Assembly: GCA_014763665.1 (NCBI GenBank)
Contig: JACXUY010000014.1
Span: forward strand, 1-35,485
DNA: 35,485 bases
Reading direction: 5' to 3'
Origin: Gammaproteobacteria bacterium
GTDB lineage: Bacteria; Pseudomonadota; Gammaproteobacteria; Thiomicrospirales; Thiomicrospiraceae
Positions 502 through 6,505 of the stretch are shown here, piece by piece. Within the stretch, counting starts at the first letter, position 1. The number at the start of each line of letters is the position of its first letter. The notes below the pieces were generated by a model. That model searched no databases. It had not been told where the DNA came from and worked only from the letters and a program-made list of their open reading frames with translations. A program made the position numbers and the translations under genes.

Positions 502-522
502 GCCATTCTTTATTCAAGGGAG

Positions 523-635
523 CCTCTAATAACCTAACGGGTAGGGGGGCACCTTACTTACGGTGCACTAAAGTGTCAGCTTAAGGTGCACTAAAGTGTC
601 ACCTTAAGGTGCACTAAAGTGTGGGGTAAGGGATG
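523..635 (+). repeat. Dispersed extragenic repeat element, copy A, with three 23-bp units
   Basis: This stretch downstream of ppiD matches, on the opposite strand, the region 5625-5692. Shared blocks in order are CCTCTAA, CCTAACGGG, a G-run, CACC-(loop)-GGTG, GCACTAAAGTGT and a GGGG(T/G)AAGGGATG end. In this copy the 15-mer GGTGCACTAAAGTGT occurs three times, at 562-576, 585-599 and 608-622, an exact 23-bp period. CACTAAAGTG is itself a short dyad. The middle unit is flanked by AAGGTG/CACCTT arms, so each unit can form a hairpin. No coding potential or transposase is associated with it. It resembles REP/MITE-like intergenic elements in structure; its family is not recognised. Confidence 0.85.
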
Positions 636-742
636 GCCAATCGTGGTTGCTGTTGTTAAGTTTAAAAGAAGCTAAAAAAGCCAAAATCAGTCAAACGCTA
701 ACAGCAATTTTCATCTTCAAAGTATCGTGGATTGGAAGCTCA

Positions 743-3454: not shown

Positions 3455-3541
3455 GCCTGAGTGGCGGAATCGGTAGACGCAGTGGATTCAAAATCCACCG
3501 TTGGTAACAACGTGGGAGTTCGAGTCTCCCCTCAGGCACCA
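3455..3541 (+). tRNA. tRNA-Leu (anticodon CAA)
   Basis: An 87-nt class II tRNA with encoded CCA. The acceptor arms GCCTGAG and CTCAGGC pair perfectly. The anticodon stem GTGGA/TCCAC encloses the loop TTCAAAA, giving CAA at 3489-3491, which reads UUG. The long variable arm (GTTGGTAACAACGT) is typical of Leu, and the T arm is GGGAG-TTCGAGT-CTCCC. It is preceded by a good promoter and followed 27 bases later by tRNA-Val. Confidence 0.97.
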
Positions 3542-3568: not shown

Positions 3569-3645
3569 AGTCGCGTAGCTCAGTTGGTTAGAGCACCACC
3601 TTGACATGGTGGGGGTCGGTGGTTCGAGTCCACTCGCGACTACCA
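3569..3645 (+). tRNA. tRNA-Val (anticodon GAC)
   Basis: A 77-nt tRNA with encoded CCA. Acceptor arms AGTCGCG/CGCGACT pair, discriminator base A. The D arm contains GCTCAGTTGGTTAGAGC. The anticodon stem CCACC/GGTGG encloses TTGACAT, giving GAC at 3603-3605, which reads GUC and GUU. The T arm is GGTGG-TTCGAGT-CCACT. It is probably co-transcribed with the preceding tRNA-Leu. Confidence 0.97.
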
Positions 3646-5037: not shown

Positions 5038-5553
5038 ATGTTGGCTTATTTGGGATTAGGCGCTAATCTGAATCAGCCCGTGCGACAGTTAAATCAAGCG
5101 GTACAGGCGTTGCGAGCGCAGCCGATGATTCGATGCTTGCGTGTTTCTCCTTATTATCAGTCTGCTCCCATGGGGCCAAAAGATCAGCCTGATTATGTCA
5201 ATGCGGTCGTAGAGTGTGAAACCGATTTGTCGCCATTAGCGTTGCTAGAAGTCTGTCAGTCGATTGAGCAGGCACAGTTACGTGAACGTAAACGCCACTG
5301 GGGCGAACGCACGCTGGATATTGATATTTTGTCTATTGACGATTTGGTGATGCAATCGGAGCGGTTAACCTTGCCTCATCCCGGTATCATTGATCGTGAC
5401 TTTGTTGTGTTGCCTTGGCGAGATTTGGCTCCAGATTATGCGATTCCAACACTGGGTTTGGTTAATGAGTTGACTTGTAGCAGAGAGTTTAACGCCCAGC
5501 CAATGACACCATCACAACAGGAAAGGGCGCTTCTAAAAATTCCCACCTCGTGA
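5038..5553 (+). CDS. folK: 2-amino-4-hydroxy-6-hydroxymethyldihydropteridine pyrophosphokinase
   Basis: HPPK transfers pyrophosphate from ATP to hydroxymethyl-dihydropterin, a step in folate synthesis. The protein is 171 aa, slightly longer than the usual ~160. It begins AYLGLGANL (the family's GSN loop has Ala-Asn here). It has YYQSAPMGPKDQPDYVNAV, the magnesium-binding motif HWGERTLDIDIL (Asp94 and Asp96), and LPHPGIIDRDFVVLP. In most relatives the first motif reads RWGPRTLD, so the His and Glu here are mild variants. It lies five bases after pcnB, with no strong ribosome site of its own, suggesting coupling to pcnB translation. Confidence 0.95.
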   Translation: MLAYLGLGANLNQPVRQLNQAVQALRAQPMIRCLRVSPYYQSAPMGPKDQPDYVNAVVECETDLSPLALLEVCQSIEQAQLRERKRHWGERTLDIDILSIDDLVMQSERLTLPHPGIIDRDFVVLPWRDLAPDYAIPTLGLVNELTCSREFNAQPMTPSQQERALLKIPTS

Positions 5554-5624
5554 CGTTTTTAGAGTTCCCAAGTTTTTTACCTCTGGTGGAAGGGATTAAA
5601 TTAAATGGCACATTTATTTTCTCT

Positions 5625-5692
5625 TCATCCCTTCCCCCACACTTTAGTGCACCGCAAGGTGAAACCCCCTTCCCGTTAGGGTTTTTAGAGGT
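5625..5692 (-). repeat. Dispersed extragenic repeat element, copy B
   Basis: Read on the minus strand this 68-bp stretch matches copy A (523-635): CCTCTAA, CCCTAACGGG, G-run, CACC-TTGC-GGTG, GCACTAAAGTGT, GGGGGAAGGGATG. It has one GCACTAAAGTGT unit, whereas copy A has three. The length difference is almost exactly two 23-bp units. It fills much of the folK-panB gap and ends about 15 bases before panB, so panB transcription must start within or before it. Confidence 0.85.
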
Positions 5693-5707
5693 TAATGAAA
5701 GTTAGAG

Positions 5708-6505
5708 ATGAACGATTCAGTTAAACCCGTTGCCTTATCTAAGCTACTTAATGCGAAGGCTTTAGGCGAAAAACTGGCGCTGTTAACCGCTTACGATGCC
5801 AGTTTCGCTCGCTTGTTGCATCAATGTGGTGTCGATGCCTTATTGGTGGGCGATTCCTTAGGTATGGTGATGCAAGGTCATGATTCCACCATTCCCGTTA
5901 CGCTTGATGATGTGATTTATCACGCTAAGATGGTGAAGCGCGGAGCACCCTTGGCTTGGGTCATTGCTGATCTGCCCTTTATGACAGCGATGGATGTTGA
6001 GCAAGGATTAACGAGTGCGCGTCGCTTGTTGCAAGAAGCGCAGGTGCAAATGGTTAAGGTCGAAGGCGGATTGTCTGTGCTGCCTTTAGTGCAAGCGTTG
6101 ACAGAGCAAGGCGTTCCCGTTTGCGCTCATATAGGCTTGTTGCCGCAACAAGCTCTGAGAGCGGGTTATAAAATGGCGGGCAAAACAGAAGTCGATGCAC
6201 AACGCTTATTGGATGAAGCTCTGGCTTTGGAAAAAGCTGGTGCTTCGTTACTGGTTATGGAGTGCGTGGTTGCTGAAGTGGCGCAACGTATTACCTCTGC
6301 CTTATCCATTCCAACCATCGGCATAGGTTCGGGGGCGCAAACAGATGGTCAGGTGCTAGTGTTGCACGATATTCTCGGCTTGTCGTCTTATGCGCCTTCA
6401 TTTGCGCCTAAGTTTCTCATAGAAGGTAGAAGTTTGGCTGAAGCGGTGACGGCTTATGTTCAGGCCGTTAAGTCAGGTGAGTTTCCGAGTCAAGTAAAGG
6501 GCTAA
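5708..6505 (+). CDS. panB: 3-methyl-2-oxobutanoate hydroxymethyltransferase
   Basis: First committed enzyme of pantothenate synthesis: it adds a hydroxymethyl group from methylene-THF to alpha-ketoisovalerate to give ketopantoate. Its 265 aa are the normal length. Visible family motifs are LLTAYDASFARL, VDALLVGDSLGMV with metal ligand Asp49, VIADLPFM with Asp88, KVEGG with Glu119, CAHIGLLPQ, LLVMECV with the catalytic Glu185, and IPTIGIGSGAQTDGQVLVLHD near the C-terminus. It lies seven bases upstream of panC, forming a two-gene pantothenate operon. panD is not in the window. Confidence 0.97.
   Translation: MNDSVKPVALSKLLNAKALGEKLALLTAYDASFARLLHQCGVDALLVGDSLGMVMQGHDSTIPVTLDDVIYHAKMVKRGAPLAWVIADLPFMTAMDVEQGLTSARRLLQEAQVQMVKVEGGLSVLPLVQALTEQGVPVCAHIGLLPQQALRAGYKMAGKTEVDAQRLLDEALALEKAGASLLVMECVVAEVAQRITSALSIPTIGIGSGAQTDGQVLVLHDILGLSSYAPSFAPKFLIEGRSLAEAVTAYVQAVKSGEFPSQVKG

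Follow-up and report, generated by a model that had tools for sequence, protein, structure and literature searches.

The window (the whole 35,485-nucleotide stretch of DNA analysed here) carries two copies of one intergenic element, on opposite strands. Copy A begins 16 bp past the stop codon of ppiD, and copy B is placed between folK (5038-5553) and panB (5708-6505), antisense to both genes. Between these two copies, the window also holds two tRNA genes recognised by Rfam (3455-3538 and 3569-3642), which sit between prepilin-like and pcnB-like genes.

The initial annotation described two opposite-strand copies with shared blocks, differing in length by two 23-bp units, and both points are sound. 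The right part common to the copies (596-635 and 5626-5665) shows 90% identity across 40 bp, and the difference of three units versus one accounts for their lengths within a base or two. The extents originally given take in only the 5' part of the element, and the full ones are listed in Table 1. A position in the 3' region of a gene applies to copy A, which follows ppiD, and describes copy B incompletely: copy B splits the folK/panB junction and itself supplies the last residues and the stop codon of folK.

Copy B is complete. The model R1 matches it at 5524-5692 with 131 bits, and also matches its core palindrome in antisense. The AGAGGT in its left end faces outward, 15 nt before the ATG of panB; no promoter-like or terminator-like site was found in this copy. 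Copy A is decayed, with its 3' half mostly lost and an R1 match (522-615) that is weak and poorly aligned. Its units stand head-to-tail on the forward strand (557-579, 580-602, and 603-625). Neither copy is covered by any Rfam family.

Table 1. Coordinates of the element copies and their parts in the window
Feature	Position	Strand	Description
Copy B	5525..5696	-	Complete 172-bp S1 element with one 23-bp unit
Target-site duplication, folK side of copy B	5521..5524	.	GAAA; from the sequence
Target-site duplication, panB side of copy B	5697..5700	.	GAAA; from the sequence
Right terminal inverted repeat of copy B, hairpin	5525..5569	-	Forward strand reads GGGCGCTTCTAAAAATTCCCACCTCGTGACGTTTTTAGAG
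Left end of copy B	5680..5696	-	Forward strand reads GGTTTTTAGAGGTTAAT
Single 23-bp unit of copy B	5640..5662	-	TCACCTTGCGGTGCACTAAAGTG, two small hairpins
Core stem-loop of copy B	5584..5639	-	GGGGGAAGGGAU ... AUCCCUUCCACC
Copy A	518..635 (end approximate)	+	Decayed S1 element with three units
Three tandem 23-bp units of copy A	557..625	+	Family D2
Possible 3' hairpin remnant of copy A	668..682	+	GAAGCTAAAAAAGCC; by-eye resemblance to loci L164 and L167

Architecture, unit number, and distribution of the family

The two copies in the window are part of a dispersed family with many further copies in the genome, as had been proposed. A genome-wide search for the 15-mer GGTGCACTAAAGTGT returned 20 exact occurrences and 24 at no more than one mismatch; these are not chance matches, because the reversed control of the same 15-mer gives 0 occurrences in the same 2.17-Mb genome. 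Hereafter, G000 denotes the window's genome, G001 its closest relative, and G003 another relative.

Full copies measure about 145-250 bp and belong to two subfamilies, S1 and S2. In S1, ACCTCTAAAAACC is followed by a G-rich stretch and then by the 23-bp units, 0-4 in number; next come a stem-loop (GGGGGAAGGG...CCCTTCCACC) and the 3' hairpin (CTCTAAAAA...CACGAAGTG...TTTTTAGAG), which terminates in GGTGCCC. The S1 terminal inverted repeat is GGGCACCTCTAAAAAC, the left end consisting of a G-rich tip plus ACCTCTAAAAAC and the right end of GTTTTTAGAGGTGCCC. S2 is the S1 core with other ends, GGAATCTCTGAA...TTCAGACCTTCC; its terminal inverted repeat is GGAAGGTCTGAATAA, with a degenerate left end (GGAA-TCTCTGAA) and TTCAGACCTTCC at the right. 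By eye, S1 and S2 are alignable over their whole length, and intermediate copies exist.

The internal tandem repeat was expected to expand and contract. Dispersed copies do carry anything from 0 to 4 units, but most S1 copies are unit-free, with a count of 0 at 107 of the 113 independent loci obtained from the model. One unit is read from the sequences of many S2 copies, and counts of 2, 3, or 4 are found in a few copies (on contigs C72, C201, and C186, and in the window). Comparison with the one close relative, G001, showed no site at which the unit number had changed, because the unit-bearing sites that could be scored clearly, namely copy B and four others, hold no element there. A second source of S1 length variation, besides the 23-bp unit, is an enlarged 3' hairpin, seen with about 20 additional bases at L164 (G000, contig C88) and L167 (G000, contig C126); a similar insert, GACGCTTTAGCGCTGCGAAGCAGAAGC, is present in about half of the S2 copies.

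A covariance model of S1 was run on 63 genomes of the order. It matched in all four genomes of the genus to which the window belongs (at least 49, at least 49, 28, and 30 matches), whereas 58 of the 59 other genomes of the family gave no match and the remaining one gave a single weak match. When the exact unit pattern was searched for in 85,000 species genomes, only Thiotrichales bacterium 35-46-9 matched, with the same matches as G001. Plasmids, phages, and viral contigs were searched as well and gave no match to the element. In G000, contigs C91, C205, C195, C88, C212, C187, C34, and C173 end inside the element or inside the IS5 transposase gene; these repeats thus appear to limit the assembly, and the copy numbers should be read as lower bounds.

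Insertion sites and the matching transposase

Exact 4-bp duplications flank 42 of 126 S1 copies, at one sharp and predicted register, against 1.4 in 126 expected by chance when flanks are swapped between copies. These duplications have a constant length of 4 bp but depart from the YTAR rule for E. coli IS5 targets. In S2, the flanking duplications are of the YTAR type (CTAG/CTAG in two copies and CTAA/CTAA in three), and YTAR adjoins the terminal repeat at most S2 ends.

The site of copy B is empty in G001, which has an undivided CAGGAAAGTCTTTCATGAACG with GAAA once and flanks that are 91-93% identical. The folK stop and the panB start overlap (ATGA) in both G001 and G003; in the window, copy B separates the two genes and gives folK a new C-terminus, RALLKIPTS, followed by a new stop codon. 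In addition, for 14 further copies, the 200-bp flanks were joined and used as queries against the three relatives. Seven of these sites are contiguous, and therefore empty, in G001 (L175, L306, L305, L309, L064, L307, and L143), and one, L061, is occupied in both G000 and G001. The other six gave no clear result in G001, although one of them (L146) is empty in G003. We interpret the empty sites as the result of recent transposition in the lineage of the window, the alternative at any single locus being excision in the relative. It is worth adding that G001 has an element of its own (contig C10, 31009-31153) about 100 bp from the L306 site of G000, so that the same intergenic region has been hit independently.

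In the G000 assembly, one IS5-type transposase gene is represented by five fragments, of which four lie at contig edges; PF05598 and a protein query detected them. Such fragments (DUF772, NF033581) sit behind GGGCACCTCTAAAAACC at contig edges. Two start behind GGGCACCTCTAAAAACCTCC or GGGCGTCTCTAAAAATTTCC, which is the S1 terminal repeat, and one deleted relic has S1 ends of this kind on both sides; fragments behind an S1-type end occur in both G000 and G003. The short fragment scores below the cut-off of NF033581 (IS5), at E 2.4e-6, and NCBIfam classifies a full homologue, from another genus of the family, as an IS5 transposase (271 bits, cut-off 140). The assembly contains the gene's N-terminal part alone, which is why a search with PF01609 gave no match. 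No intact transposase gene was found in the G000 assembly, and the insertion sequence that matches S1 is seen there as the fragments and the one deleted relic. S1 is an IS5-family derivative whose ends are common with those of a transposase-encoding IS5-family element. A search for an insertion sequence with S2 ends turned up nothing beyond MITE copies and chance sites, and L361 proved to be located upstream of an argS-like gene.

Because of the terminal inverted repeats, the 4-bp duplications, the empty sites, and an IS5 fragment with matching ends, we read the element as a family of IS5-type MITEs, non-autonomous and dependent for movement on an IS5-family transposase acting in trans, with a probability of roughly 0.93. 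The REP- or MITE-like mobile element of the initial annotation is thereby upheld as mobile and as a MITE, but not as a REP sequence. An IS5-family transposase would recognise the terminal inverted repeats of S1 (GGGCACCTCTAAAAAC) or S2 (GGAAGGTCTGAATAA), and each transposition would leave a 4-bp target duplication. The interior consists of a conserved folded core and a two-hairpin module of 23 bp, present 0 to 4 times, whose units are presumably gained and lost through slippage or recombination. Insertions survive almost only between genes, often within operons. S1 lies more often antisense to co-directional genes, and in many cases its AGAGGT left end closely precedes the start codon that follows; an insertion could therefore allow the downstream gene to be translated as before.

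Gene context, folding, and competing explanations

Merging orthologous insertions left 113 independent S1 loci, and simple ORF calling assigned a context to 99 of these. Within co-directional gene pairs, 41 copies are antisense and 23 sense, a modest bias (p 0.03); the remaining contexts are divergent (19), convergent (13), or within a reading frame (3). A start was defined as an ATG opening a frame of 60 or more codons, or a frame that was still open where the 400-base flank ended. By this definition, the left end lies 4-15 nt upstream of an ORF start at 22 of 105 loci and the right end at 2 of 111 (p 4e-6).

Near starts, the copies also match the anti-Shine-Dalgarno sequence better (p 0.009); GGAG-type left ends are not significantly enriched there. 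The idea that the right end avoids starts through a sequestered AGAGGT is unsupported by folding, as the predicted accessibility of AGAGGT does not differ (0.32 at the left, 0.28 at the right); folding alone, therefore, fails to explain the asymmetry. The simplest reading is that insertions that would destroy translation are lost and that the left-end AGAGGT can replace the native site. This pattern suggests that surviving insertions may supply a Shine-Dalgarno site inside operons, and the bias of one end toward start codons offers a concrete, testable case of a transposon compatible with tightly packed operons. It is possible, although we regard it as doubtful, that the left repeat would act as a portable ribosome-binding site for entry into operons at stop/start junctions in one preferred orientation, sparing the downstream gene, and the 23-bp unit as a number-variable module that tunes expression.

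The helices considered here were named by eye and then counted on alignments, rather than predicted. On A3, an alignment of 84 distinct copies from the three relatives that was fitted to the structure, 90.9% of helix cells are paired (97% in the core stem-loop), and 129 cells have changes on both sides; shuffles gave 44 such cells and slid versions no more than 41. The independent alignment A1 gave 13 versus 5. In the right-end helix, 12 of 13 pairs have both-side changes on A3 (the pairs were also counted on A1), and in some copies the first hairpin of the unit has changed on both sides, from CACC/GGTG to CTGC/GCAG. RNAalifold, run on simple MAFFT alignments, returned weak structures.

These observations can be read in more than one way. 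The difference between left and right ends at starts, the better anti-Shine-Dalgarno match, and compensatory changes that keep the helices, that of the unit hairpin included, would all suit a domesticated regulatory cassette, mobile in origin, kept for the ribosome-binding site that its left end would give to downstream genes, with the folded core and the number of units adjusting how stable or how well translated the mRNA is. Most of the tested insertions are nevertheless unshared with the closest relative and hence young, which requires no usefulness; 83 of 105 loci lie away from a start codon, and purifying selection against harmful insertions predicts an identical pattern. Going by the sequences at hand, we consider such a cassette unlikely. 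Covarying helices would likewise be expected of a vertically inherited structured RNA gene or riboswitch family. In helix 1, G-U outnumbers A-C on the given strand (37 versus 15 cells, the cells being non-independent and the alignment fitted to that strand), which is weak evidence that may favour action as RNA over action as single-stranded DNA. Copies at unrelated loci and the lack of an Rfam match speak against vertical inheritance, and the empty sites between close relatives contradict it, so that we hold this account to be very improbable.

An extragenic, palindromic element of high copy number could also be taken for a REP/BIME-type repeat spread by a RAYT (Y1) transposase, and this is the account to which we give the least credence, next to none. 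REP sequences make no target duplication, and the 4-bp duplications thus contradict it; moreover, the length is about 150-250 bp and the terminal inverted repeats match an IS5 element. Readings as attC or CRISPR were dropped on sight of the ends and spacing.

Comparison with known systems

Read as an IS5-type MITE, the family is apparently unrecorded: no paper describing it was found in the open-licence literature. It appears to be recently active and to shape intergenic DNA across a genus of sulfur bacteria represented by draft genomes. Its ends can be compared with those of E. coli IS5, GGAAGGTGCGAATAAG, which the S2 ends GGAAGGTCTGAATAA resemble; the 4-bp YTAR-type duplications of S2 are a further likeness. 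In contrast to IS5, the present element has no transposase gene, and the ends and targets of S1 differ.

Chunjie, a MITE of Geobacter uraniireducens, is about 200 bp long and has tens of copies (PMC10969869), and a paper cited in that article is the source for its insertion into an operon without disturbing it. The likeness, one of description only, is in size, copy number, and the insertion into an operon; the account of Chunjie in the part of that article drawn on here mentions no variable tandem module. The BOX element of Streptococcus pneumoniae, with its modular plan of boxA-boxB(n)-boxC (PMC3049150), is similar in layout: fixed modules at the 5' and 3' sides enclose a middle one that can be absent or occur up to several times, and that is largely independent in the predicted RNA fold. 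It differs in sequence, module sizes, and its streptococcal host, and is set apart here by description, our host being a Thiotrichales-type gammaproteobacterium.

The nearest published analogue is the BrickBuilt MITE of Porphyromonas gingivalis, which has 19 dispersed copies, ends like those of the IS5 family, and a leader and tail around 23-nucleotide tandem repeats (PMC4596501). IS5-like terminal repeats, 23-nt tandem units, and dispersal are all features of the present element. However, the terminal repeats of BrickBuilt are of the GAGACCTTTGCA type, and the ends here differ when compared with the table in the same paper. Target duplications were found for 3 of 4 testable BrickBuilt copies and differ in length (PMC4596501), whereas those of the present element are a constant 4 bp; in addition, the present element is mostly unit-free, its core is a covarying fold, and the host of BrickBuilt belongs to another phylum. 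An IS5-type MITE with a 23-bp module so far from Porphyromonas therefore implies that this architecture arose more than once or has spread.
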